Shown: piece by piece, positions 22,001 through 62,996 of the stretch
How the letters are laid out: each line of letters opens with the position of its first letter
How positions within the stretch are numbered: the first letter of the stretch is position 1
Assembly (NCBI RefSeq): GCF_000003815.2
Contig: NC_049996.1
Span: forward strand, 5,227,069-5,291,068
DNA length: 64,000 nucleotides
DNA from: Branchiostoma floridae
Lineage: Eukaryota; Chordata; Leptocardii; Amphioxiformes; Branchiostomatidae
Direction: 5' to 3'
Made by a program: the position numbers and the translations under genes
Notes under the pieces: model-generated
Told to the model about the DNA's origin: nothing
The model's input: only the letters and a program-made list of their open reading frames with translations
The model's database searches: none

Positions 22001-25000
22001 CTGCGAAGCAACCCTCTCTACGTGCCTGGTGCGCTTCGACAAGATAAAAACCGAAGTAATTTATTCATTTTAAATATAGCAAATGTGACATACTCTCAAT
22101 TAGCATTGCTTATATAGTAATTAGTATAATACCAAACAATAGGAACAGTCATAGGTCTAAGTACTTTTGTCAGTGACTTGACGAGCAACTGAAATTATGT
22201 GTTGTTGTTTTTAAGTCAAAATAATATGTTGATAATATAAAGACATATCTACGACAGCTGGATAAAAGATCTAGGCTTGTTCAAAACAATGTTTTGTTCT
22301 AAACCATCGGTTTGCCGCTATACAAACAAAGCTACTCGACTTATTAACATATAGCCTAGTCTATTGGTTTAAAATCTGGTAGCACCAGATTCTTGTCAGG
22401 GCACTAAAAAACGGTTGCTTTTTTGAAACGTCTGACCATTTCTGTTATTTTTTTGCGTACATGGTTGACGATGTTTTGGTTCCTGACTGTTATCTTTAAT
22501 TTTGATCATTCTTTTCAGATTTGCGGAAGATCGTTTCGAATATATGGCGTTTTCATTCACTCCGACCCATAACCCGAGTTGCCTTTGCAGTTGCTATAAT
22601 AATGGCTTCTGTGGTCGTTACTGCCATTTATCTCACGGTAATTGTCTTTCCTAACTTTAACCCTGTATAACATTTCGTAATTCATGTTAACTACAATCCA
22701 ATGGAATTCGTTTATACAACATAACAGAAAGTAATGGCATAATTAAATCCTAGCTTTATATAAGTATTTATCTATATATTACATGAGTTTCAGACAAGAA
22801 GTACAGTTAGCTAACAAAAGCTTTCTCACTAACATAAACATGAAACAAGAGTAATAAAGAAAGTCAACATACATATATACACAATTGATAACAGAAAGGT
22901 AAATTTAGACAAGTTGGTGCTGTATCAATTAGCCTTATTTTACCAATACACAAGGAATACTTTAAAAAGGAATACTTTTACCTTCACTCTATAATAAAAA
23001 GTTTTTGAAGCTCTAATAGTTTTGTTTCAAATGTTCCACTTTTTTTATAACAAAAAACATAAACATTGAATTCCATAGCCATTAAAGCAGCTTAAGTCAG
23101 GAAATTTATTGACTGTACATGTGCAAGGGAGTCCTTGGTACAAATCGATGTCTTTTGACAACGTTTTGAGGGACAAATTTAGTCTAAGGATATTGTATCA
23201 AAGTGTGGCTACTTAACAATACGCCATGATTTGTGAACTCAGCTATTGACAAGCAGAATCTTAAAATACATCTACTTCTCTTGCACAGGTCGATGGATAT
23301 GACCTGAAAATAGCATCAACACCGGCAGATATGAAAGCTGGTATCACTGGAACATCAGGAAGTGTAAGTATTTCACTAAATATAATAAGGGTTTCTATGC
23401 TTAGAATCTTAATTTTTTTCTTAAGGCTTTCTTTTACCCAAAAATGATTCCAAATTTTCACTTAAGTTTATAAATCGTAAACTTGAAGATATTTGGTAAC
23501 ACTACCCAAACTTGCGTTTCTGTGTGTAACAACGTTTAGTGGATAGAGAGAGCATGATCGTTTAATTATTTATTTTGTAGACGATCATTCAAAATGTCAT
23601 TTATTTGATTTTAGGACGTTGATTTGATATCAGGTTGACATCTTTAGAGAACATCAAAACTTGTGCAAGAGTGCGGAATAAAAATATCGCAGCTATTATG
23701 AGATCTATGTGGTCAAGAAGGTCAACCAAAAAAAAAAGAAAAAATGTATTAAATCACGTGATGTCATCCCGACTAATCCATTTAGGGTACGGAGGTCCCT
23801 AACATACAATTACACAAGATGTCCGCTTTATCATATCACCATTTACTTCACCTGCACAGGTCTATGAATTTGATGTGGCGACAACATCATCACCGGCAGT
23901 TATGAAAACTGACATCACTGGCAACGATGGAACACCAGGCAGTGTAAGTACTTTAATAAGTAACTATAAGGAATTCTTCTGTAGTTTTTTTTTCTTTACT
24001 AAATTGTTAATTGTATTAGGCATCCCAACCTGCGTATGTTTGGGTAACCAATTTTAAGTGAACAGAGAGAGCATGGACTTGCAATGTTTTAGCAGGATCC
24101 GGAGATCATAAAATATAAAACAATAAACTCCCAAGGTATGGTGTGTATATATAAGCTCATGTTACAGCTGCATTCTGATATATGCTTCTATAGACCTCGT
24201 AATTACTCTTTTTGTTTTGTTTTGAGCAGGATTCGATACCTACAGTTGAAGCAACACAGTGGAAGACTGAAAATCCAGACCTGTCAGCGACCAGGAAAGG
24301 TACGGCACAGACACAAACTTTACAACTTAAGTTGTCGATCCTATAATCCATAATCTAGCTAGGATTAGGTACCCATCTTTTGCATTACATAATTTAAATG
24401 AGTTTATGTTTTTTTTTTACCAGTCAAAACAGAAGTATGTGCGATTCTAATAAAACCCAACTTCCATGTGTTGATATACACGCATGCATCGTTGTGCTTC
24501 ACATTTCAACAAATGTTTATTTTAACACTCTTATACACTACACCTTTGCCGAATGAGTGTTCTTGTGTTTAGCTATATAAATACCCCTGACACAGAATAT
24601 ATGGCACATAAAATGCGTAAACACAGGGTTGATTACCTTCGTCGAGTCTTAATCGTTTTCGCTCCACAGTTTCAGCTGACAGCTTCAGCTGCAATGACGG
24701 CTACAGAGCCATCGAAAAGACCTGCATACGGCTCGGTTCTGAAGAGTTGTCGTACGATGAGGCAAAAAAGACCTGCGAAAGGGAGGGAGCGACACTGGCC
24801 ATGCCTAAGACAAAAGAACTGGACGTCGCTCTGAGGAACCTGGTCCGCACGGAAGGCCAAAACAACATCCATTGGATCGGCTTGAGGAAAAAGAAGGGAC
24901 TCAAGCTTCTAAATAAAATGTGGCAATGGATGGACGGAGTCTTCTTGCGCAACTACAAGGTAAAATAATGATGTTAGAAGAAACTAGCTAAATAGCATAA

Positions 25001-34366: not shown

Positions 34367-37300
34367 ATGAAGCCAAGTGTGCTGTCCCTTGCATTGAAGC
34401 TACGTTTTCAGTCAGTGATGGCTTTGCTCAGATTCGCTACCGGAGGGAGAAAGCTTGCTTATGGTATTTTCGGAAAGAACGTGTTACCGGCGTTCCAAGG
34501 TCTTGGACAGAAGAGTTTAAAGAGACAGATAAGGTATGTACGCATCGTGACGTATATCTTAATCCATTATCTTGAATGGAGCCTTTTTGGAACCGCAATA
34601 AGTTTTGACAACCAAACTAACAGATTCGTGTATTTTGAAACGATTTTTTTAATTGGGCAATATGACTTTTAGGTCGTTGAGTTTGATAGGGGGTCTATCT
34701 AGGTTGGTTTCAGGTGCAAACAACAGATCTGCATACATAAGCAGTACAGTAATTACTTCTTATGTTGAATGCTGATACTTTTTGCTGTTCATGTGCTAAA
34801 ACATATGGCTAAGAATAAAAGTGTTTTTAAGACAGCAAAAGTGCCTGTATAATTCACTTGTTCAACAGTTTCACAAGGTACGGAGGGGGAAATTTTTTCT
34901 GTCTATTGGAATGGCATGGAGCTGTCTTCACTTTCTGTTCGTACGAGTGCTCCGGACGAAATTTTCACCCCTTAACTTTTGAAACAATCCCCTAAGCTTG
35001 CCTTCACAGTTGTTCTTTCCTGTATTCCAGTGATGTTAGTCCGAGGTTAAAGGACATGTGCACAACCAGTGTAGGAGTTCCTCTGGGTCTTTAGAAGAAA
35101 TAAAGTTCATTAAAGGCCTTTCCCACCATCTCCTGAGCTTGAAGGTCCCAATGTAAGTTGTTGGGACAGAGAACATTGAAATAGGAAGCGCTAGCTACCG
35201 TTGTGTTTTCAATGTGCAATGGTGGCATGGGTTTTATGTCCATAGTGAGGCATTCAGAACCGTTCAGGTTGAGGTGTCTTTTTGACCATTAGCATAGCTG
35301 ATCTAAATTGGATTGTAGGTTAGATAATTGCTAAAGTCGTCTCGTCTACGTATTTCCACACTGGGTTGGTGGTTTCACACATAGCGTCGTCGGTAAGGAC
35401 GAGAAATGAGATCGGGCCAAGCAGTGCACCCTGCGCAAGTGCACATTTCAGACGTCTCCACTTTGAGAGAGATCCACTATAATACACGCGTTGATTCATG
35501 TCGGAAATAAAGTTGGCTACCCAAAGTACAAATGCTGGTTGAAATTAAATCTCGAACAGTGTGACAAGTACAGTATGGTGGTAGACTCCTTTAAACACAT
35601 TGGTGGCGTCGCTTAGCTCTTTATGTAATTTTGCCGTTTTTAATTTATAACGGGAATATCGTGCAAAACATTGAAGTATGACCAACAGTAGTACACATAA
35701 AACGTAAAAGTGTTCTTTTTTATTATATCCATTGAGTACTGTACATGCATTTAATTTCGCGGGGATTTAATTTCGCGGTGGGGGATAAAATGACTTTTCG
35801 CGGCGTTTTCAAGTGCGCGGTAGCACCATGCACTCTTACTGCGATGGAAATGTTCTCGGTGGTTTTAAGTTCGCGGCGAAGCGGTCACCGCGGAAACCGC
35901 GAACATCAAACCACCGCGACAGTTTCTGCATTTACATTACTCTATCAGATCGGCCGCGTACCGCGTCTTTACTGAGATACCCCACCAAACAAGGCAGGGG
36001 GGAAGTTAACACTTACCAAGGGGGCAATCGTTTGCTGCAACAGCTTAGCCCTAGATAGAACAGTTCGAAGAATAATGCAAGATCAAATGTTAACTTGTGA
36101 CATCCCGGCATGGAAGACCCCCATTCCTCGCCTTATTAGCTCATCACGTGGTATCTAATAGTTGTTTGATTACTATCGGTTTTCTGATAGTTTGCACAGC
36201 ATAAATGGCCGTTACAGACCGTAGGGCATTGACGTGAATGACCCAGAATCAAGGAAATGCCAAATAAATATTACAAGCCAAAAATAACCACACAGCGACT
36301 TGGCAGCTTTTTATGGTAGTGTAAATCCAACAATTGTATATCATTGGCACTTCTCCCACGAAGTGGCCTTGAATGTCGTCTGGGTAACAACAGCTGCGAG
36401 ATAACGACAGCTGCAATTTCTGTTTGTGTTCCACGACGTGTAAAAATTTAATCCAGCTTTGCTTTCAAGTGGTACACTTAATTCGTAAACATTCTATCAT
36501 CAGCTTTGCTGAATTGTATTCTGCCTTTTTTTTTGCGTCTTCCTCTTTTGCTCTTAGTGCAAGTTTCACAACCTGACCATCAGGTCACTAGTTACGTTAT
36601 GCAGCTGCAAAGAACATTTCAGAAATGTATTTAAATATTATCATATAGCTAAGCGCCGCGGACCAATTGGAAGGCCCCGTTCCATGTTGGTTATATTGCC
36701 GTAACACACAGATTCAGGCCAGCTTTGTGTGTATCGCTCCTTTTGATTTGTCAGAATTTGCAACGACACCGATTGGTGTCGATTTGCTGCGTTTACTCGG
36801 TGGTTTTATTCGGCGGTTATAGCAAAGGCCCTTATGAAATTATATACACCGAGAAACAGGCGTGTCATTAACCCTTAATTCAATAATTAAATTTGACGAT
36901 ATCTTAGTCAGCGGTAGATACACGTGCTGTTTTTTTTGTATTTTGTAAATATTTTTTTTTTCTTGTCGTAGTGGACATGTTTCTATGGTTAGTCGGAACT
37001 TCCTGACGCTAAAAGACTTCACTCCGTCCGAGATTCAACAGCTCTTGTGGACGGCTGCAGACCTGAAGACCAGGATTAAAAGAAATGGGGAGGTAACGCG
37101 TACATTTTTCTTCCTTTTGTACTATAACATTTGGTCTGGAAACAGACAAATCTTGCTTTTTATTCAAATACAATTTAATCTCTACATCTCGATAAAAAAG
37201 AGAAATACCTTTGACTGACATCTATCACTCTTTTTCTGCGTCATTACAAATGCACTTAATTAAACGATTCATATACGAGTACATCTAACTAGAAAAAGCA

Positions 37301-40300
37301 GTTGTAAAGGGAAGGTTTGTATCAATATTGTTTACCCGGGTGTCTAACAGTTGCAGACGTAACCCATGCTTTACGCCTCAATGAAAAGGCAAAATTAAGA
37401 TAAAGTAGATGGATGATGTGTTTTGGACAAAAAAGGGCTGATATATATTTACATCGACAATATCAGAAAGCTGACTGCTAAACAAGTATATAATTGAATA
37501 AAAGTACCGAACTAACATTTGTTTTTCAATATGAAAACAAACTTTTTAAATACAAGAAAATAACCTAATATGTTACTCAAGTAAGTAGAAACTAGAGTTC
37601 CGGGACCTCATGCCTTCGACGAATGGTTTGAATCTTTTTTCGAGTGAATTATTTACATTTTCCCATGTTATTATGCCAATAAGGTCATGATTTTTCGTAA
37701 TTTGTCTCGGTTGATCATCCTCTGTATCACAGAGGTACAAGTCCAAAGTACAAAAGTCGCATCGTATCAGAGGCCGAGGTTAAAGGACCTATGTCGTGTT
37801 TCCTAAATAATTATGTAAATATTAATACCATTTGCATAATTTATGTCTAATAATGTTCAACTTCACTAAGCTTCATAATAAAACATTGAATTTTCCATAA
37901 TTCACTACTATGGAATTATAATAATTTCTCACCAATTATGCAAATCAGGTCGTTATTTGCATAATAAATGTGTATCAATATTTTTTGTCTTTCTTAGTTA
38001 CGCAGGTGGCAAGTTTGAGAGCCATCTAATGGAATTCAGTGGATTTCAAACTTTCCTAATTGATCATGCAAATTAGCTTTTGATTTGCAAAATAAGTATT
38101 TCATTTTGTAATTTATCACTTGGCTATCTACATATAAAAGTCCTTATGATCCGTCAACACGTTCAAAGTTTGAAACGAAATCGGCGCCTGCAGTGCAAAA
38201 ACGCAGATGATATGGTTAATATAACAAAGTTTGGAGGTTTCCGCTACAGTAAATAACAGCAGTTCCACAAGACTGTTGCGCTTGAAATCTGCAATACATC
38301 GTAACACACTATTTCATACATCTCCTTACAAACTTACATTTTTCCCATCAGCTCTACACACCCTTAGTGGGCAAGTATGCTGCTCTTATATTCCAGAAGA
38401 GAAGTACCAGGACTAGGCTGTCAACTGAGACAGGTAAGCTGTTTTAAAAATAACTTATATGAAAATGATGATAATTTATGTTATGTATCTGTTCGTCATC
38501 AAAAGCTCCAAAAAGTAGAATAAATATAAACAGACTTATCAACATCATTCCTCCTAATTTCGAGGTGCAGCCAGCGCACTTTATTTTCCAGGATTCCATT
38601 TTTCTCAGGGTTGAGATACGTTCATGTCCTTCTATTTTTTTCTAAACTCTATAGTACGTATACAGTGATTGGACGGGAAATCCTTGTCTAGGCCTAAAAG
38701 TAAGAAGGTTGTCGATTGGGTCTCTGCTAAGTGCCACATGACCGCGAGACTTATTTCACGACATTTCGTGGTGACAAAGGATTGATTCATCATTGTATAT
38801 TATTCGTTATGTGCTACCTCAACTACGCGCAACATCTTCGTGTAAGTGCCATTGTTGGGTGCCGTATCGTATTGTGCTAATAACCCTCGATTCTGACCTA
38901 TTAAAATATTTATTCAATGCATGTGTTTTGTATTGGTTTCTTTTCTACTGAGAGATTTTCAAATTCTATGTACTGGGTAAAGGATGGACTTGGTGATCCT
39001 AGCATCTATGTCATGGCCAATAAAATGATTGGAGTATTTTCCTGTATAGTTTGTGTTTATGCACATTTGAAACTCCTCAAGTCGACTTTGCCGGTATTCT
39101 ATAATGCCACCCTATCACTGCAGGTGTTAGCTTACTTGGTGGGAAGTCATATTTCCTGTCCCCGGATGACATACACCTGGGCGTGAATGAAACCGTCAAG
39201 GACTCTGCCAAGTAAGAATATTGTCTTTGCCAGCATGTTTTTAAAATATCGATAGACATCAATAATAAGAATTGTTATCTAATTTACATAATTATTGATA
39301 TATTGTTATAATAGTCTTGAATAGAAAACATTAATTCTTGTGACATTTGGCAGCGACATTGACGGTAAGTTGAGCAGACAGACGTGATTTATGCAAATTG
39401 GGGTCTCATTTACATACATTATAAGATAATGCTACAATAGCTTTCTTTGGTAAGACTTTCATACTTAGAACACATTGTTATTTAGAACACATTGTTATTT
39501 AGAACACATTGTTATTTAGAACACATTGTTATTTAGAACACATTGTTATTTAGGTATAGGAGATGATGAACTGATGTATTTTATGCAAATGAGGACCTCA
39601 TTTGTATAATCAATGAGAAACATGTATAATAGGTTCCTCGTAATAAGAACTGGCCTTTCTTGTTTACAGCAATGCGCTACAAACATCCATCTCGTAAAAC
39701 AATCTTCATACATACAGCCAGGTGAATAGAAAGAATACAAATACAACAGACCTACAAAAACAATTATCAACACTTAAAAGCAATAAAAAGCAAAAGTTAT
39801 TATTGTAACTAGGACCATTAATATTTGCAGGGTCTTGTCAGGGTATGTGGACCTCATACTTGCCAGAATGTGTAAACATGAGGATGTTGAGGCACTGGCT
39901 GAAGAAGGAAGTGTCCCTATTGTTAACGCTCTGTCCGAACTCTACCATCCACTACAGATCCTAGCGGACTTTCAAACACTACAGGTATAACAAACACTCT
40001 TTCTACATGTGCGTGGACCCTGTGCTAGTTATTGTTAATGCTTTTAGAGTGTAGAATTTTTCAAACTGTGTTAAGGCTACACCATGTGTTTTGGATGCAC
40101 TATATGTTGTGGTTACACCACGTAATAGGGTTACACCATGTGTTGGTGTGACACTATGTGTTGATGTTATACTGTGTGTACGGGTTACACCGTACGTGTG
40201 AACAAACTCAATATTTGATTTAAAAAAAAATGCAGAAAATGTAAATTTCAAGGCCTTATTTATACAAGAAAACAATTCTGCTAAAATGTCTTTTATATCA

Positions 40301-40688
40301 GTGTGGTGAAGCACCGCGCTCGCATGGTGGATCCCAGGTAAATGGACACGAATGGCGTAACATGTTTTTCTCGTGCACGCCTTGGTATGGAAGGTGAAAC
40401 TTTGTTACCCAAAATATCTATTTTGTCTCGTACACGAAGGGTCATTTTGGCAACCTGAGAGGCTTGACTGTTGCCTGGGTGGGAGACGGCAACAACATCA
40501 TCCACTCCTTCATGATGGCGGCTCCAAAGCTGGGTGTTAACCTGAAAATCGCATGCCCAAAGGTACTGTGTTCAGCAATAAAAACACATAACAACGGGAT
40601 GCCAGAACAGGAAAAATAAACTAACATATACTATGTGGAACTAATTTAATATCATAACGATACAAAACGTTCTGCTTGGATGACGGGG

Positions 40689-40720
<32 letters not shown>

Positions 40721-43700
40721 ATATATATATTTATTGTATATAAAGGGACGCTATTGATTTTCCTCTAGTTTCTTTATCTATTTATATCTATTTAAAGAGC
40801 AAATTTAAAATGCTTTCTTCTGATACGTGTTTTTTTTTAAATTTGTGTTTGGTACTTCAGTACCACTTCCGCCCTAGCGCGCTTTAATAAAACACAAAAA
40901 AACTAGTTGGGTGCAATTTTTTTTCTTTTTTTTACCTCCACGTGATAGTCATAGTACAATCGTATATGGCACTAATAATTCGAACAAATCTATATTATCT
41001 CTATTTTATATCTTAGTTCATAGCTGCCCAATGGTAATACGGCCTCATACTGCATTATCCAATGGAGAAAACCGTTTGGCAACGTTAATCATATTAGTAT
41101 GTATTTGGATATCTTGAATTTAATATACATGTATATGGCCTGTAGGGGTATGAAACCTGACCGAAGGTGACAAAATATGCAGAAGAGATTGCCAAACAGG
41201 TAAGGGGTTCGCATCGACGATTTACTTTGTAACACCTGATACAAACATGCTGAGTTAAGAATGTTTAAGTGGTTTGCGTCAGAAATGTCCGTCACAGACT
41301 CTTCTGATGGACTATTCCTGCTCTATCAGCTGTTTGGATCTTTGCAGAACAAAGATATTAATGTGATGCAACAGCTAATACCGTATCAATACAGAGAAAG
41401 CCTGGTTGACTACCGTAAAATAAATTCTTCCCCCTTTATTCGAATATATTGAGATTCAAATAACAGTTACATGTGTAGCCTAATGTTCCCACATTTCGTC
41501 TGATTATTACCAAGTACGAGACCGAGATTTACCACACAAACGACCCGAGGGAGGCGTGTGAAGGGGCCAATGCCATTGTGGCAGACAGAAGGAGAAAAAA
41601 CGGTATCGGACCAAGGCAGGAAACAATGAAGACACTTATGGCTTTTGAGGAGTACCGAGTCACTCATAAGGTAAGGTTTACATTCTCCAAGAATCTTAAA
41701 TATTGATGCAAATAAGTCAATTAGCTCATGTGTGTGTGTGTAAGAATGTTCTAATACAAATCTACTTCTAAGATAGTAACTTAATGGCATTCTTCGAATT
41801 GTGCAACTGTCTTTTGAACCCGAAATCATTGTTGTGGGTCTTTTTTTTTCTTTAACGCCATTACGTAAAATCTGATATAAGAAAATATTGATGCACATGA
41901 CCGTATATTATGGAGAACACTACTCTTTGGCTAGTACTAGGGGTTACTAACAAGTAGTAGCTTATAGATCAATATTTTAGTTTTAAAATCAATATCATAA
42001 AGTTTACTGTGGCCATTCGTCAAAGAGAAGTCACTCAAGGAACCGGATATGATTTTAAAAATGGTCACTTGTTTCAGAGAGCTACGTGTATCTTGCGTAA
42101 GTGACATTTAGCAAATCTCCATATGTTAACTATGAATAGAGAAATAAAGGAGGCGTAGGTGATTTTATACAGTCCAATAGGGAATAAATAAAAGACAAAT
42201 ACAATTTTGATGGGAATGAGTCATTTAGCTCTTGATGCTTCAGCTACTTCTGTATAGGCTATAAACTTTCAATTCCAAGAAAAAATCTGGACACCAAGTA
42301 CAGATAACAGAATGATGGTGTTTTTTACGACTCCTCTTACCAATAGCAACATCAATTACATCGAAATGAAGCCATAGAATGATGTCGTCATTTCTAAGAT
42401 ACTAGTTGGGATCCGACATCTTTGAAGTTTCAAAAATCCATTTCTTGTAGCAAGTTTGTTGGCTCTAGCGTAGGCCGTTCTGGCGCTATGCGACATGGAA
42501 GTTGGCGTAGGTCTAAAAAGCTTCCCCGCCCTTGCTTCTGTTGCCAGTAACAACATCAATGCCATTGAAATGACGTCATAAAATGATGTCATATCTAAGA
42601 TACTAAGATACCTGGTCTTAATAGGGTTACAATTAGATGTCTCTACGACGAAAAGTCTGCAGAATTGATATTCATGCTCAGGGTCCCAGCATTCTTGCTC
42701 AGGTTCCCAGAATTCTGCAGAATTGGCCTTCTTCATGCAGCCATCTAATTGCAACATATATATTCATAATCAGTTGATATATCATAACTACAAATATCAT
42801 CTGGTCAATCTATTTTAAAAAGTTTTCTGGAGTTAAAGTGTTCGTCTGGAATTATAGTGTTGCCTGCTCTATGTGTTCTTGTCCTTGCAGTTAGCGGAGG
42901 TGGCAGCTAAGGACTGGGTGTTTCTTCACTGCCTGCCCAGGAAGCAGGAGGAAGTTGACGATGCTGTGTTCTATAGCGACCGGTCACTGGTCTGGAAAGA
43001 GGCTGAGAACAGGAAGTGGACTGTAATGGTAAGTATTAATGGTGCGTAAGGCTGCTAGTTTAGCCCGTTTGTTTGCCTTCTACAAGAGAAGCTCCTCCAT
43101 GGAGTTCTAAAAATTATTTGTATTCATAGTGCGTAGAGCTCGCTCCATGGTGCTGGATGGCTGTACGACCAACCTACATGGAGGACCTCACCTCCATGGA
43201 GGTTGCTCGTGATGCCTCTATTGTACATTTGAGGATCCTCATCCTTTTCTTTCGGACCAGCAGCTTTCAGAATAGGCCAACGAAAGCTTTGGAGAGCCAA
43301 ATTGCAGAGCATAGGATAAAGCAGGACTCGTTTGTCCGGATTGAATGCACCCAAATACGTTTTATATAAGCATGCGGGGAAATCTAATGTTCTCTTTATG
43401 TAGAAACTCCGCATACCCAAGACACCTTCGGTTGCTCCTAACTAGTGGTTCGTACCCAATCATATATTCAGGTTCAGGTCCGGATTCAGGTTCAGCAGTT
43501 CAGGTTTAGGTCCGGATTTTATTTCTATGGAAGGTTTTAGATAGTTAAGAACAAAAAAATGACAGATAGCTTTTTGTAAGTCCGAACTTGGCTCTTATAA
43601 ACTAGTTTAACTGTAATATCCAACACAAGAATTGGACTCACCCAAATTTTTGACTTAACAGCACCGCTCTTTGTAAAAGAATTTACAATCCACTGCTGTT

Positions 43701-43857
43701 ACGTCATGCAGGAAGAACACGTGACTCATTAAACAGTGGATCGTAGGTTGCAGGAAGTCTATGGCGCCAATCATTTATTGATGTGTTTATTTTACAGGCT
43801 GTTATCCTGTCACTACTGAAAGACCACGTCTGCACAACCCCGAAGCCAGACTACTAG
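34367..43857 (+). CDS. OTC: Ornithine transcarbamylase, mitochondrial, with in-frame stop
   Basis: OTC makes citrulline from ornithine and carbamoyl phosphate in the mitochondrial matrix. Ten exons join in phase: 34367-34533, 36972-37092, 38352-38433, 39124-39211, 39831-39984, 40440-40562, 41146-41199, 41515-41670, 42891-43028, 43798-43857 (381 codons with stop). Exon 1 encodes an Arg/Lys-rich, acid-free presequence ([15 protein letters not shown]). Carbamoyl-phosphate motifs STRTR (114-118) and HPLQ (192-195), the WVGDGNN motif (217-223) and the catalytic HCLPR (328-332) are present. Exons 3-7, 9 and 10 (82, 88, 154, 123, 54, 138, 60) equal human OTC exon lengths as I know them. Oddities: exon 7 contains TGA at codon 250, and the ornithine-binding DTWxSMG motif is not recognisable in exon 8 ([10 protein letters not shown] at 286-295). 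Either a sequence-error-affected or diverged gene, or a recent pseudogene. Confidence 0.85.
35060..35640 (-). mobile_element. LINE reverse-transcriptase relic in OTC intron 1
   Basis: The minus strand reads [20 protein letters not shown], then [19 protein letters not shown], then [11 protein letters not shown]. These match the reverse-transcriptase palm of CR1/Jockey-type LINEs: the thumb-side FLSDR-QRV segment, the QG-x-LGP-LF loop and the YVDDTT catalytic box, here with E for the second D. Stops occur between blocks, so it is inactive. Confidence 0.75.
35735..35950. mobile_element. MITE with AATTTCGCGG repeats
   Basis: The left end has TGCATTTAATTTCGCGG, repeated as GGATTTAATTTCGCGG. The right end is the inverted CCGCGAACATCAAACCACCG then TTTCTGCATTTACA. 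The CpG-rich interior between AT-rich DNA and the imperfect terminal inversion suggest a small non-autonomous DNA transposon. It lies in intron 1 of OTC. Confidence 0.55.
36100..36960. other. OTC intron 1 distal part, nothing recognised
   Basis: This is intron sequence without supported exons or elements. It ends with a T-rich tract before the exon 2 acceptor at 36970-36971. Confidence 0.4.
39465..39553. repeat. 17-bp tandem repeat, five units
   Basis: The unit AACACATTGTTATTTAG is repeated about five times almost without change in intron 4 of OTC. There are no spacers, so it is not CRISPR-like. The near identity suggests recent expansion. Confidence 0.95.
40065..40200. repeat. Degenerate GGTTACACCATGTGTT tandem repeat
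   Basis: About five diverged units of roughly 15-30 bases, each with a TACACCATGTGTT-like core, lie in OTC intron 5. On the minus strand this produces a spurious open frame with repeating THGVT, which I do not regard as coding. Confidence 0.75.
40689..40731. repeat. (AT)n microsatellite
   Basis: An interrupted AT dinucleotide run of about 40 bases in OTC intron 6. Confidence 0.9.
41146..41199 (+). CDS. OTC: OTC exon 7 carrying TGA
   Basis: This 54-base exon has good splice sites and reads GYET[17 protein letters not shown]. The conserved family sequence at the start is GYEPD. The bases CCTGAC that would encode PD are present but displaced by one base: there is one extra A before them and one C fewer after them. 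The exon length (54) is unchanged from human because the two indels cancel. TGA occupies 41158-41160. Confidence 0.8.
42340..42622. repeat. Degenerate CRE-bearing MITE copy in OTC intron 8
   Basis: It contains AATGACGTCATAAAATGATG, a CGTAGGCCGTTCTGG-like segment shared with the 50-kb copy, and the terminus CCTGGTCTTAATAGGGTTA. Confidence 0.55.
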
Positions 43858-45872: not shown

Positions 45873-48800
45873 ATGACCGCCATAGAGGGTGAGCCTGTGT
45901 TTGGATCCGGAGAAGACTGCAAGCCAGCATGGACAGACGCCCCGGCGGACTACGATACGACGGACGAGCACCTGTCAATCATGGGGAAACCCGTCATGGA
46001 ACGGTGGCAGACGCCTTACATGCACAAACTGGCTAAAGTCGCCAGCTGCAACGGTAGGGAAATATTCGCTTTATTCCCTGACCTAATCATCTATGGAACG
46101 GTAAATGAAGTTTTTTTATTTTGTTAGCCTGGGGGGGTATAACAGTTGCCTTAGGTCTTCATAAATACAAGCAAAATGTGCCCCTCAAATGCCAAATGCA
46201 GGAAATGAAGTTTTAGATGGTCAAGATTTTAATTTTTTTCCCCGGTCGCCCCTTGCGATGGCTTGCGCCACAGGCGCAAGCGATGCTCTGGTGCTTGTCG
46301 CCATCAAAAACATTTTCCTTTAACAGAAATTTCATTGAATTTAGCATAGTCTCCGAGGAAAGATTATCCCTCTAAATGCGGAAAACCTCATTTTTGAGGG
46401 TCATGGTTTCAGCACTTACCCGGTCCTACTAGTGCCTAGCGACGGCTTGTGCCATGGGAACTCAAAATCGGGAAAATACGTTTGGGGCGTCATTGCCCTG
46501 AAAAACTTAAGCTAAAACAATGTGAAGTTAACTAGAAAGACCATTAAATTTAGCGGCCGCTGCCTCTGTTGGATGATTCCATGTTCGCACAAAGTTTCAA
46601 CAATATAGCTTCCAACTTTAGTTTTATTTTGAGTTAACATCGTACATGTATAGTGGAAAAGATCGCCATGGAACAGCCCTCCCCATCCGTGGACGCAGTA
46701 ACCCACCTTTACTTAACACGTATATGCCTCACAGAATGAAAAAAAAAATGCGCTTAGGGCTTGTGCTAGGACGTCTTCCCTTGGTAACTTAGAATATTAA
46801 CAAGAAATGGAATAATTCTACCATTTTTCGTGTTGCCATGGCAACGGGTTTCTGAAAAGCATATTTCATAAAGTTAACTAATTTTGGTGTAAATGATAAG
46901 ATTTTCTTAACAGACTTAACTTTTTATATAACTTTTATATGTAACATATTATAACGATTCGGTATTATCAATTTATGCTAATGAGATCACGTAAGCGTTC
47001 AAAATCAAAGATTGCCTAACATATCACGATGAGATGTATAATCAGCTTATTTTTGGTCTGATTTCATCAGAAATTTGTATTTTATTGAGAAAAAATCATT
47101 TATATAAACGTTTTATATATCAATCACTGTGTTGATATTGCGACTAAAGTTCCTACCCGCATTCGTTCTTCCTTGCCGCCTTGATCCCCTGAGTATCCCA
47201 ACATCTCGTATCATTGTTTTCAGTTGTGCATTTGTTCTTGGAGTGATGTTCTTGGAGTTCTTTATGAATTCCGTGGAGTATCTGAGCAGTACTCTGGTTG
47301 CCATTGTTGACCACTACTGATCTGAGATCCTAGTTCGAGAGAAAGAAGTTCAGATTGCTATTCACCAGTTCAAACAGAACACCTTCGATTTTACCATATA
47401 TGACAAATACAGTCCAATGAATGATTACAAACACAGATAATTTCTTAAAAGCGCCGGCTATCTAGTGACAAAAGATATCATAACTTATATAAAATTTTAT
47501 TCATGTGATTAAATAGCCGCAATGTAGCAGAAAAAAAACAGATAAATACATTATACGAATTATACAAATATTGTAACAACGTTGCAAACTAAATTTAGGA
47601 AATGTCATAAAATTCGGTGCCTATATAGTGTAAGCCGTTTAGGCGTTCTGCGACATCAAATTTGGTGCAAGCTAAACCCTCCTGTCTGAATAGTGGTAAA
47701 ATTATCTAAATAATAATGCATTTCTTTAAGAATAAACTCATGATTACTTGTATATGTTTGTGTCATTTTAGTTTGCCGTATATTCTTAGCTGGTGCATAA
47801 CTTCATCGACCTTTCCGATACTTTCTTTATTATATTTGACATTCCGAACAAAATTCAACTGACTTTCCTGTCATAATACACAGACATTTAATGGTTATCA
47901 GCAATGCGATTTTAATGGCCAAATAAACGCCTTATACTTACTATTAAAGGCACAGTGGTATAATGATAATATTTACTTTGAATTACTAGTTTAGCCAATA
48001 CAGCATACATTTTGTTGCAAAATTGATGTTTTTGTTAATTCAATATTTCCTCAGGTGGCCGTGTCCTTGAAATCGGATTTGGCATGGCCATTGCCAGCAG
48101 CGAGATTCAGCGGCACAAAATCGATGAACACTGGATCATTGAATGTAACGACGGTGTGTTCAAGAGACTACAACAGTGGGTCAGGGAACAGAAGCACAAG
48201 GTCAGTACAAGACAAAAATATTATGTTTAGTATTATAAGTCTTAAATATTTTGCTACGAAACAGTATATCTGGAAGTCTCGAATTTTGAAACGTTGGGTC
48301 CTTTGTTGTTGGTAACGTAGTAGAATGTATTTTAGTTTTTGGAAAAAATCGTTTCGTACCATACTCCTCTTCTTGTTCCATAGTAAAGAATTGTCAAATG
48401 GGATGTTTTACAAATATAAGGCAACAGGTTTGTATAGTCAGGAAAGAAAAAGAATGATTAAAAAAAGAACTACATTTCATACAACTTTTAAGACCGATGT
48501 TTTTTTTTCTCTTTTGCTCATGGTCTTTGTGGTTTTCATATCTGAGAAATACAATCCCCAACCTTTTTTCCCTAAAGAAATGAGGTTAGCAATAACAATA
48601 GACAAAAACGATTCTACAGCAATTTATATATTTATCATTTTTCCGTGTACATGTGCGCTGCCTAAAGCATAAAGTGACATTCCCTTGTCCCTTTATTCTT
48701 TGGTTTTATATAAGTACGAGAATCGCAGCGCCAAACAGAAATGGCATGATATTTATCACGTTTGTTATGTTGATAGAGCCCAAAAGAAAAAAAAAAAAAA

Positions 48801-51581
48801 TTGGAATGAAAGAAATTTTTGCAAAGGCTTCCTTCAAAGACTCAACTACAATATGGCCTGTTACAAAACTAGAGATTATAGACTTCTTTACGGATGTTAT
48901 AGGTTCCTATGCAAAAAGATAAGCGGGCACATTTGAGGCATAAGTTCAAAATACCATTTACTTTTATTAACACCGATTAACGTGGTGTTTCCTGTTCTAA
49001 ATCTCTGCAGATTTTCCCAATAAAGGGCATGTGGCAGGATGTTGTCCCAACTCTACCCGATGGACATTTTGATGGTAACTTTTTTTATTGTTTATTATGT
49101 AGTTTTTTTTTCTATTAGCAACGGACCATTGTTTGTGCAGATTGTCAGTGCGTAGAGTTCTCAATGGTAGAAAAGTATGCTTGTGTATACTTTGTCATAT
49201 TTAAAACAATCGTGTAGCATATGTTCGTGGTAGGTATTCTACTACTCTATGCCACTAACGGTCAACCCTTTTAAGCCTATCCAGGCTTGTCTTTTGTGCA
49301 TTCCCAGGCCAAGGGGTGGGGGCTCAATTGGCGCCACAAATTTCCGGTTCATAGAAGGTTGTTGCCTTAAGTAATGGGTGTTGCCATTTCTCCGGCGGTC
49401 GTTGCCTTTTTAACGGTCGATGCCATATCCGAGCGACCGATCTTGAATTCGTGGTATGTTCGTGAAGATTTCGTTGCCTCTCGGATTTTGCGTCCAATCT
49501 TGAATTATCCCCTGTCAAAGACATAGCAACGCAAAAATGATGTAAATTGACCGAAATTCTTCGAAATTGTTGCCAATTAGATTTAAGGAAAACTCACAAA
49601 ATGCTGTGGCTTTAGCGTAAGCAGTTCTAAAGTTATGTGACATAAAAGTTGTCACAAGCCTCAACCCCCCGCCCCATCCGGTCTAAATAAGGTTATATAA
49701 GTTATATTCGGAATGCATATTTATTTATTAATTGTACCTCCCGTAAAGAATGGTAGGGAGACAAAACAGGTGATACCACCTCTGCAAGTTGTCTCCCCGC
49801 ATGAACACAACATTTTTTTAAAAATTACTCGGCCTTAGGGTATCGTGTTGCATTGCAGTAATTTACGTTACCTAATGATGAAATGACTGTGTCTAACATG
49901 TTACCAGGCATTTTGTACGACACGTACCCCCTGTCTGAGGCGGAGTGGCACACCCACCAGTTTGACTTCATCGGGAAGCACGCCTGCCGGTTACTGAAGC
50001 CAGGCGGAGTTCTGACCTACTGTAACCTAACTTCATGGGGTGAACTACTAGAAAACAAGTACGACAACATTGAAACCATGTTTAAAGTAAGTTGGTAAAA
50101 TTACGAAAAATCTGTCTAAGGGTATGTGTTTCAGAAAATAAAAAAATCTAAATTTACAAAATTTAAAACCCATTAACCCTATTCAGACCGGGCTTTTTTG
50201 GTCATCCCTGGACTGGGGAGGGGCGAAGGCTTTTGAGGTCAAGTCCTCTAACTCTAAAACGACGTACCGTAGGGCCACCAAGTTTTGAGGACATAATGTC
50301 GACATAACATCTGACAAGTATGTGACGTTTGACGTTACGTTGACGTAAGATGACGTAATTATGACGTCATTAATTTGATTATTTTGGCCAAACCCATGAA
50401 AAAAGGGTATTCTCAGAAAACTTTAAGTTATGGTACAAAAATGTAACAACAAGTGCCGATAACAAAATAAAAATGTTTATTACGCCTTGCGTTGCCAATA
50501 GCCACATCAATAACGTCAATATGACGTCATTAAATGACGTCATGCACATCTAAGATACGAGTTGGGCTCCGCCATATTATACCCACCACCTTGTATTTTT
50601 AAAAATACTTTTTTGGGCAACAAATAATCACAAAGTGCAATGGAAATAGACTAAATTTATTCATTTAGATGATTTTTGATGAAAAAATATCAGGTAGTTA
50701 AAAATTTTAAGGGATAATTAGTTTGTTATTCTTGATCTTGCCATTCGGTCCGCCATCTTGGATTTTGGGCTGATGACGTCATCAAATTAGCATAATTTAT
50801 GTATATTTAATTATGAAAAATATGCTTAATAATATAAGATTTTATTTATGTAACAAAATCGCAGTAATATAGCAAATAAATGTGAAAAATACATTCTTAG
50901 AACCCAAAATAGCGATTTTTGGCAAAACTGCCTGTGAATAAATGGTTGCCATGGCAACAAGAAAAAATGGAAAATTTGTAAAACTTCAAACAAATTGTTG
51001 CTAACAATATTTTTCGAAAACTCACCAAATTTGGTGGCTCTAGCGTAAGCCGTTCTTGAGTTACAGGACATCAAAGTTAGCGCAGGCCTCAAAAGCCCCC
51101 CCCCCCCCGTCTAGCTTTCTCCTTTGTAAATTATTTTCAATTATGAACATTTAACTATATAAAACAACACTTAGTTATCTACAAACTACAAATCATGACG
51201 ATACATCGATCATAACTTGAGTTATCTTCTTTTAAAGTCTGACACTAAACCAGTCTCTGCAGTTCCAAAACAAGCCGCTGTAAGGCCCAGATCCCTTCAA
51301 TACAATCCATATTAGCATTCCCTAGTTATGCTTTCACACTTATTGTATGTAGTAAATTTACTTTTAGTAACACGATGACGTTTTTAATCGAGTAAAGTCA
51401 TTATAAAAGCAGTGAAATTTCTATATGCCTTTTTTTACAGGAGACCCAGATCCCTTACCTTGAGAAAGCAGGTTTCCAGAAAAAGAACATCTCATGGGAG
51501 GTCATCTCTAACCAGCCGCCAAAAGACTCACGAAAGTACAAGTTCCCACTTATGCTTGCACCTAAGTGTATTAAGACTTAA
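45873..51581 (+). CDS. GAMT: Guanidinoacetate N-methyltransferase
   Basis: GAMT transfers a methyl group from S-adenosylmethionine to guanidinoacetate, the last step of creatine synthesis, in the cytosol. Five exons join in phase: 45873-46053, 48055-48200, 49011-49074, 49908-50086, 51441-51581, giving 236 codons plus stop, the human length. Hallmarks are PAW and [17 protein letters not shown] in exon 1, the SAM motif [14 protein letters not shown] (61-74), [24 protein letters not shown] with the conserved acidic residue, and [17 protein letters not shown]. Exon lengths 181, 146, 64 and 141 equal human GAMT as I know it. The 179-base exon 4 equals the sum of human exons 4 and 5 (68 and 111), so one intron differs. 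All sites are intact. It follows OTC in the same direction. Confidence 0.95.
46200..47060. repeat. Repeat-rich part of GAMT intron 1
   Basis: About 46815-47060 is a degenerate piece of the MITE family: a perfect GTTGCCATGGCAAC at 46832-46845, then TTATGCTAATGAGATCACGT. A matching end piece (GTAAGCCGTTTAGGCGTTCT) occurs at about 47600-47700. The 46200-46480 part holds a small inverted repeat TTGCGCC-ACAG-GCGCAA and is otherwise unidentified. Confidence 0.5.
47113..47400 (-). mobile_element. Possible LINE ORF2 N-terminal relic
   Basis: The minus strand reads [20 protein letters not shown] followed by INTVI. A VLR-RG-R-G-R-hydrophobic leader of this type often precedes the endonuclease domain in CR1-like LINE ORF2 proteins. 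It splits the MITE pieces at 46.8 and 47.6 kb, consistent with insertion. Low confidence. Confidence 0.3.
49262..49700. mobile_element. MITE-family copy in GAMT intron 3
   Basis: It begins TTTTAAGCCTATCCAGGCTT and ends CCGGTCTAAATAAGGTTA, matching the TTAACCCTATTCAGACCGGG terminus and its inverse. The interior has lost the CRE and X-box motifs. Confidence 0.55.
50173..51113. mobile_element. Best-preserved copy of the CRE/X-box/YY1-like MITE
   Basis: It starts TTAACCCTATTCAGACCGGG at 50173. It contains four full TGACGTCA sites (50362-50369, 50522-50529, 50535-50542, 50774-50781), CCGCCATCTTGGATTTT at about 50750-50766 and the perfect palindrome GTTGCCATGGCAAC at 50945-50958. It ends in a C-run and CGTCTAG near 51113. 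No coding frame. It fills most of GAMT intron 4. Confidence 0.7.
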
Positions 51582-61547: not shown

Positions 61548-62996
61548 CTAACTGACGCCGATGTCAAACTCAAGCTGCTTCCTGAAATCTATCCTCTTCC
61601 GGTTCCTGGAATTTGCTAGGACGATGACTGTGGAGTCGAGGAGACTTCCGACTGCGATGACGGCAGCACCAACACTCTCTAACAAAGTCGGCACCAACCC
61701 GACAAACGCAAACTGCAGCAAAAACGTCACCCCCTCTTCTAGTTGTCCCGACAGTACTTGTGTAATGGGCGGCACTGCTTTGGCTGCCTTTACGTATATA
61801 AATGCTGACACCGCGTATAAAAAGCCACACAGTACCAGGGGTATTGTTAAATACACATCCATGTCCCACTTTGGGTGCGTTAAAAACATTGATCCAATCG
61901 CCATTGTAGAAGAGACAGCATGTGAATAAAATAATACCGCCAGGTCTGTACTGTGTACAAGTAAAAGTCTGAGCTGAACGTTTGAGAGACATTCTGTCAA
62001 AGCTGATAGAAGGGCCAACGAAACGCCAATGATTGGTGCACTGTTGTCACGTGACATGCCGATGTTTCGGGTTATTGTTTTGCTGTTGTCACGTGATGTG
62101 CCGATGTTTCCGGTGATTGGTGTGCTGTTGCCACGTGACGTACCGATGTTTCCGGTGATTGGTGCGCTGTTGCCACGTGACGTACCGATGTTTCCGGTGA
62201 TTGGTGCGCTGTTGTCACGTGACGTACCAATATTTTCCCAGGGGCCGACCGCCACCAGAACAATTCCTGCAGTACAAAGCACGCTCCCGAAAAACCCAGC
62301 TAAACTCGGTCTCTACAACAACAAACATGGTGATCAGAGCTACCATCTACAAAAAAGAAAAAAAAAATAAATAAAAGAGAAGGGAAGAAGATAAAAAAAA
62401 GTAGAAAAAATGAAACTAAAAAGGAGAAAATGTGACCTAGGAAAGGACTATTTCGAAATAATCCACAAAACTTAGTCTCTGTAGTTAGAATCATTGCTAT
62501 CAGATAACTACGCGCTATCATAGAAAAGACACAAACATGCACTAACAAGCACAAGCAGAATTCCACAGTTAAAAGAACCACGAAAACTTGAAGGAAGTAA
62601 GGAATTTTTCTCGGGTACTAAGCGCTGTAAAAACTCACCTGTCGGAGAAAAATGTAGGCCCCTATGGTGATGAGAAGCGGCAGTGCGGAGTTGTTGATGG
62701 CGGTCGCGTTCGCGGGTGGAAGATATGTGATGGCAAAAACGAAACTTACAAACTCGACATACTCGCCGACACCTTGAAGTACCAACTGTCCCAAGACTCG
62801 CCAATCTCAGACTCGCCGGTCTCAGGTCTGTCTTATACAACAGCACGAGCCCCAGCGTCAGGAGAAGCGCGCTGCCCTCCTGAATGAAGACCACTTGAAG
62901 CGCCGTGACTCCACTGGTGGTTACCTGCCGCGTCAGGACCGAGATAAACGCAAACACAACCCCGTAGGACGCAGCGATGGAAACATCTTTCACGGC
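61548..62996 (-). CDS. Drug/metabolite-transporter (EamA/SLC35-like) protein, 3' exons
   Basis: Two exons are seen: 62996-62639 (acceptor CAACAG, donor GTGAGT) and 62312-61548 with the stop. Exon 1 encodes AVKDVSIAASYGVVFAFISV, LQVVFIQEGSALLL, then VGEYVEFVSFVFAITYLPP and ANATAINNSALPLLITIGA. Exon 2 encodes GFFGSVLCTAGIVLVAVGPW, a hydrophilic repeat loop, then helices through LSGQLEEGVTFLLQ to the C-terminus. The layout of paired helix repeats and the late E-G/E-E motif fit the EamA/DMT fold, an integral membrane transporter; the substrate is unknown. The N-terminal exon was not found. Exon 1 is 358 bases, one more than phase allows: the frame shifts within a GAGTCTGAGATTGGCGAGTC repeat near 62800. 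Confidence 0.65.
62029..62238 (-). repeat. In-frame 42-bp coding minisatellite with E-boxes
   Basis: Five 42-base units encode five 14-residue repeats of the type NIGTSRGNSAPITG in the loop between two transmembrane halves of the transporter-like protein. The unit length is a multiple of three, so copy-number change keeps the frame. Each unit contains a CACGTG E-box. Confidence 0.9.

Follow-up and report, generated by a model that had tools for sequence, protein, structure and literature searches.

What has become of an OTC gene that keeps its catalytic motifs and carries an in-frame stop codon together with an altered ornithine loop? The gene lies in the Florida lancelet, Branchiostoma floridae, and the original prediction offered two readings of it: a decaying gene, or a carbamoyltransferase paralogue with changed amino-acid specificity and a sequence error in exon 7. 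Two features are at issue, the TGA in exon 7 and the part of exon 8 that should encode the SMG loop, which is the main acceptor-recognition site in OTC.

Gene model and surroundings

The window, by which we mean the whole 64,000-nucleotide stretch analysed (C18:5227069-5291068), contains an OTC-like gene at 34418-43857 (+). Its ten exons are in phase, as had been claimed, and each intron runs from GT to AG. Exon 1 (34418..34533), located by tblastn with the second OTC of the genome described below, supplies the start codon and a presumed mitochondrial presequence. It is followed on the same strand by exons 2 (36972..37092), 3 (38352..38433), 4 (39124..39211), 5 (39831..39984), 6 (40440..40562), 7 (41146..41199; 54 bases, phase 0/0), 8 (41515..41670), 9 (42891..43028) and 10 (43798..43857), the last ending in the terminal stop TAG. 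The motifs reported as preserved, STRTR (in exon 3, where the carbamoyl-phosphate motif reads FQKRSTRT), HPLQ (exon 5), WVGDGNN (exon 6) and HCLPR (exon 9), are all found in the translation; the carbamoyl-phosphate site (SxRT, HPxQ, HCLP) is intact there, and none of the exons contains a frameshift. Exons 8-10 score 88.4 bits with Pfam OTCace and have human OTC as their best solved-structure match, and ATCase is absent among their 27 matches with E up to 0.001. GC3 of the coding region is 0.56, against a GC of 0.33-0.45 for the window. The acceptors of exon 6 (40440) and exon 8 (41515) end in AAG, at a position where the second OTC has C or T in nine of nine acceptors; the two AAG acceptors are a possible sign of decay.

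Exons of GAMT (guanidinoacetate N-methyltransferase) occupy 45873-50086 (+), just 3′ of the OTC duplicate and on the same strand. A query made by joining two GAMT exon pieces matches solved GAMT structures (E 1.1e-51); in the 20 kb around the second OTC there is no credible match to either piece. Elsewhere in the window, an open frame at 24633-24965 (+) has a C-type lectin domain (Pfam Lectin_C, 33.8 bits), and another at 61551-62312 (-) has a weak EamA transporter match (16.9 bits, below the curated cut-off) and a repeated NIGTSRDNSAPIT-like segment.

A canonical OTC in the same genome

The genome searched comprises 513,431,437 bases in 431 contigs. A genome-wide Pfam search placed OTC exons in the window and on contig C373 (92,488 bases), with one more match, of 27.5 bits and below the family cut-off, on C2, which is presumably another carbamoyltransferase. 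The OTC on C373 is intact and canonical, with DTWISMG in its loop, and the presence of this second, canonical OTC in the same genome supports the suggestion that the window gene is a paralogue. Exon lengths are identical between the copies except in exon 8, which has 156 bases in the window and 150 on C373, the discrepancy to which attention had been drawn. A genome search with the whole C373 protein, in which 19 candidates were scored, yielded 16 matches, every one of them in the window gene or the C373 gene, and hence no third OTC or haplotig; it recovered seven of the ten window exons and nine of the ten on C373, so that it may have overlooked a further copy that is short or very diverged. 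C373, which carries the canonical OTC of the assembly, is a short contig and probably an unplaced scaffold.

In blastn with low-complexity filtering and an E of up to 1e-5, nine of the ten exons match between the copies: identity is 69% for exon 1 and 77-85% for the remaining eight, and exon 8 is without a match. Corresponding introns show no similarity by blastn, and four further matches pair no corresponding introns and are repeat-like. Coding identity is 79.9% over the nine exons without exon 8 and 79.5% when the flanks of exon 8 are added. The notion that C373 is the other haplotype of the window was rejected, the exons being 69-85% identical and the introns unmatched; for scale, allelic SNPs in the Chinese lancelet are given as 4.39% (PMC4284660).

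As judged from a coding identity of ∼80%, a dS of about 1 and dissimilar introns, the two copies are old paralogues. Orthologues of the Florida and Chinese lancelets are reported to have a mean coding identity of 79.5% and virtually no intron similarity, after a split ∼120 million years ago (PMC4284660). Since coding and intron divergence of the two copies resemble those of this species pair, the duplication is, as a rough estimate, about as old. By the same coding divergence, the time under selection may be ∼100 million years.

Where constraint holds and where it fails

Rates were computed pairwise between the window and C373 copies by the Nei-Gojobori method. Outside the loop (343 codons) dN is 0.097 and dN/dS 0.098, at a dS of 0.991 that is close to saturation; for exons 2-10 outside the loop the values are dS 0.955, dN 0.076 and dN/dS 0.080. 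The ratio is 0.080 upstream of the TGA (bootstrap 0.045-0.131) and 0.083 downstream of it (0.039-0.146), and this equal constraint on either side argues that the stop is recent. Constraint has not been lost across the coding region, which rules out a long-standing but not a recent loss. Of the earlier suggestion of a decaying gene, then, long-standing decay does not survive a dN/dS of ∼0.08 on both sides and the lack of frameshifts, while a recent death is compatible with the data.

For the loop, dN is 0.511 and dS 0.797; their ratio is 0.64, and its bootstrap interval is broad, at 0.18-2.7, with 933 of 1000 replicates usable. Differences at codon positions 1, 2 and 3 number 6, 8 and 6 among its 17 codons, compared with 37, 23 and 114 among the 269 codons before it and 3, 6 and 29 among the 76 after it. 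It holds 15.5 nonsynonymous differences per 17-codon stretch; the next densest stretch outside codons 1-41 has 8.7, and the N-terminal presequence reaches 12.8. The C373 loop is near the human and prokaryote loops, so nearly all of the loop change would have occurred on the window branch, at a rate approaching the neutral one.

Family conservation was assessed with 74 prokaryote OTC loci, 70 of which were aligned, the others (L079, L092, L095, L097) being dropped for want of an open frame >200 residues with both motifs. SMG is present in 70 of 70, in a set that is biased towards SMG because MGQEEEKQ was one of its six search patterns. We called a site near-invariant if it is conserved in at least 90% of the 70 prokaryote OTCs and is the same in C373 and human. 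The loop region (C373 residues 269-286) has 11 such sites, of which 8 differ in the window copy; the rest of the protein has 51, all of them unchanged there (Fisher 4.9e-8, an optimistic value, since the region was chosen after seeing the alignment and takes in one residue ahead of the loop). An 80% cut-off gives 9 of 12 against 0 of 60, and a 97% cut-off 8 of 11 against 0 of 40. Sites 167 and 172 are excluded by the rule at the 90% cut-off, as C373 departs from human there and both copies have changed alike. Site 188 (G in the window, D in C373), which is conserved in the family and lies outside the loop, is not among the 51 because C373 differs too.

Outside the loop, with human as outgroup, 19 changes fall on the window copy and 4 on C373 (chi-square 9.8). 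One of the 19 (T269, human 262, adjoining the loop) is at a near-invariant site and the other 18 are not; five (G83A, L148V, G162A, T219C and L260I, human numbering) lead to the commonest or second commonest prokaryote residue. This faster evolution also fits a general relaxation of the window copy, and counts against the reading that we prefer below.

The altered loop

The altered SMG loop and the helix after it lie at 41584..41640 (+), counted from the exon start plus a 69-base flank, and include a 6-base in-frame insertion. The C373 loop reads DTWISMGQEEEKQERLK; that of the window is two residues longer, and the codon alignment sets D-R-R-(RK)-N-G-I-G opposite D-T-W-I-S-M-G. Placement of the two-residue gap is ambiguous: the codon alignment sets SMG against GIG, whereas in the MAFFT alignment S stands opposite K and MG opposite IG. 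DTWISMG is indeed absent, as was first noted; to call the loop unrecognisable was an overstatement, since it aligns with one 6-base in-frame gap and substitutions.

With one 6-base gap, 31 of 51 loop bases match, which is equalled by 2 of 5000 dinucleotide shuffles, and in the core without the edges 20 of 36 match, equalled by 97 of 5000. When gaps are free, 14 of 2000 shuffles do at least as well as the whole loop and 385 of 2000 at least as well as the core, so that the core is then not significant. The best gap falls on a codon boundary with the insertion in frame, and the frame is also maintained in both flanks of exon 8, which are identical to C373 at 52 of 69 and 23 of 30 bases. From these alignments the window loop is most likely homologous and diverged; the core aligns weakly, and it may therefore have been partly replaced, or swapped by one mutational event after death of the gene.

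In OTC, ornithine is bound by Asp263, Ser267 and Met268 of the loop together with Asn199 and Leu304, and carbamoyl phosphate by SxRT, HPxQ, Arg141, Cys303, Leu304 and the neighbouring subunit's Gln114 (PMC8517447). The SMG loop and helix alpha-10 are described as moving together on ornithine binding (PMC10765591), and the diverged stretch of the window corresponds to this unit of loop and helix. The window copy lacks the sequence DxxxSMG that defines the OTC acceptor motif (PMC4581275); it keeps Asn199 and Asp263, and its S267 and M268 are changed. Set against the animal mitochondrial OTC (EC 2.1.3.3), it shares the exon lengths of the canonical copy bar exon 8, SxRT, HPxQ, HCLP, Asn199 and Asp263, whereas it has D-RR-RK-N-GIG in place of DxxxSMG, changes at conserved residues of the post-loop helix and the TGA in exon 7.

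The Arg that follows Asp263 in the window copy stands, as we take it, at the position of the Arg in the ATCase motif RxQxER. An Arg after the position of OTC Asp263 also occurs in DPTCase and DBTCase, in (T/S)RWQTTG and TRWQSMG (PMC4581275). The rest of the DPTCase, DBTCase and ATCase motifs is nevertheless missing from the window; the Cys of HCLP is kept, and the overall sequence is that of OTC. Comparison of the loop with the known carbamoyltransferase families, which had been proposed as a check, was made by eye, and among the motifs set out in PMC4581275 the window loop fits none of those of OTC, ATCase, PTCase, DPTCase or DBTCase.

The nonsense codon

The in-frame TGA at 41158-41160 (+) is present as described. 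It is codon 233 of 364, and TAC (Tyr) stands at the same place in C373. The window copy is thus without a full open reading frame and, if the TGA is not a sequence error, carries a disabling change of the kind expected in a pseudogene. Exon 7 of C373 reads GYETYPNVTKDAEELAKQ, and the window exon aligns to it without an indel, both having 54 bases. Given this equal length and the GYETYP of C373, the TGA is a substituted codon and not the product of two indels. The earlier account, in which an extra A and a missing C cancel within the exon, was therefore mistaken, and arose because the GYEPD of other OTCs was expected. A hidden canonical exon 7 or 8 was rejected, as tblastn of the window gave no credible alternative for either. 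Exon 7 is still constrained (dN 0.081, dS 0.622 over 17 codons, window against C373).

With 0 of the 51 near-invariant sites outside the loop changed, the upper 95% bound on neutral substitutions since the loss of constraint is ∼0.028 per site, transitions being given double weight. If evolution were fully neutral, the chance that none of the 51 sites is hit would be 0.06 for 15 missense changes and 0.03 for 19. The polymorphism section of the Chinese lancelet paper gives an average synonymous rate of 0.070-0.075 (PMC4284660), and beside this the bound of 0.028 leaves room for a stop that is still segregating. Typical alleles may be older than the TGA, which could then be polymorphic, newly fixed or erroneous; a base error, a null allele that segregates and a fixed change may all be reconciled with the data. 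Presence-absence variation in B. floridae is reported for 2,309 genes, or 7.9% (PMC12373286). Recently inactivated duplicates and segregating null alleles of lancelets resemble the window gene in that it has a lone nonsense codon in a constrained old duplicate. The difference is that the divergence of the window gene gathers in a single functional unit, and a young null allele gives no account of this.

Interpretation

The reading that we prefer, with about even confidence, is that the window gene is an old OTC duplicate, long under purifying selection, in which the ornithine gate alone escaped constraint or was remodelled, and in which a young nonsense codon may still segregate. The duplicate, presumably mitochondrial, would for most of its life have made a protein under strong purifying selection, with most of the fold retained along with the residues that serve carbamoyl phosphate and catalysis, while one structural unit, the mobile SMG loop with the helix that follows, which in OTC shut over ornithine, would have diverged at a roughly neutral rate. 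A kept carbamoyl-phosphate site beside a diverged gate suggests that the working protein probably bound carbamoyl phosphate, with ornithine recognition lost or changed; a changed acceptor is possible on these residues. The TGA would have arisen later at codon 233, and the product of the allele in the assembly would then be a protein cut short before most of the ornithine domain, or nothing at all.

We consider it possible, though rather unlikely, that the gene is a plain recent pseudogene that never had a new function: a redundant duplicate lately switched off, whose loop was wrecked by one or more compact mutational events after, or causing, the loss, the TGA following. The TGA itself, the faster evolution of the window copy, the two AAG acceptors, the weakly aligning loop core and the canonical OTC elsewhere in the genome all point this way, and the probabilities with which 15 or 19 changes miss the 51 sites allow a short neutral phase. 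However, a neutral divergence of ≤0.028 per site is too little for a loop mismatch of ∼39% (20/51 bases) by ordinary point mutation, and the loop insertion is in frame with its gap on a codon boundary, in a gene whose exons are all free of frameshifts.

Doubtful, to our minds, is that the lancelet has here a living carbamoyltransferase, which would join the carbamoyl-phosphate machinery of OTC to an Arg-rich loop for another acceptor, or would act beside OTC as a partner subunit without a gate, in either case with a TGA that is segregating or erroneous. Slightly more doubtful is its narrower form, an enzyme with a new acceptor: a different amine would be recognised by the Arg-rich loop, in which Arg takes the place of Thr at a position occupied by Arg in DPTCase and DBTCase, and the TGA would be either a base error or an uncommon null allele. 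In favour of a living enzyme, the copy retains Asn199, Asp263, HCLP and the carbamoyl-phosphate motifs beside its altered S267 and M268 (roles as given in PMC8517447), and constraint persists in the exons 3′ of the stop. A further point in its favour, if the sequence used here is the 2020 Branchiostoma floridae assembly, is that this was put together from Sanger reads at ∼tenfold depth, taken from a single diploid individual, with its two haplotypes merged (PMC7269912). Yet the stop stands in the assembly, the loop fits none of the published family motifs by eye (PMC4581275), and exons 8-10 are closest to OTC, with ATCase not among their matches.

It is very improbable that the gene stays alive by splicing round the stop, either by skipping exon 7 or by using an acceptor 21 bases downstream. 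Either route would leave the frame open to the normal stop, but exon 7 is itself still constrained, skipping it would delete part of the ornithine domain, and the downstream acceptor would be an AAG. An assembly or base-calling artefact in exon 8 plus exon 7 is just as improbable, for while a haplotype-merged Sanger assembly might harbour one, if it is indeed the 2020 assembly (PMC7269912) that was used, the loop differs by ∼20 bases and one in-frame insertion and the exon 8 flanks still keep the frame, which scattered errors would likely have broken.

Implications

A literature search on amphioxus or lancelet OTC, the lancelet urea cycle and OTC pseudoenzyme paralogues returned nothing related, as far as titles and the opening parts of abstracts indicate. 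An animal paralogue with one diverged unit and the remainder under selection is a natural experiment on substrate change or loss in a carbamoyltransferase. Should the altered loop not be shared by other lancelets, the window gene would represent the recent loss of a redundant duplicate; should they share it, the finding would point to a basal chordate in which a carbamoyl-phosphate-binding protein has a role as yet unrecognised.
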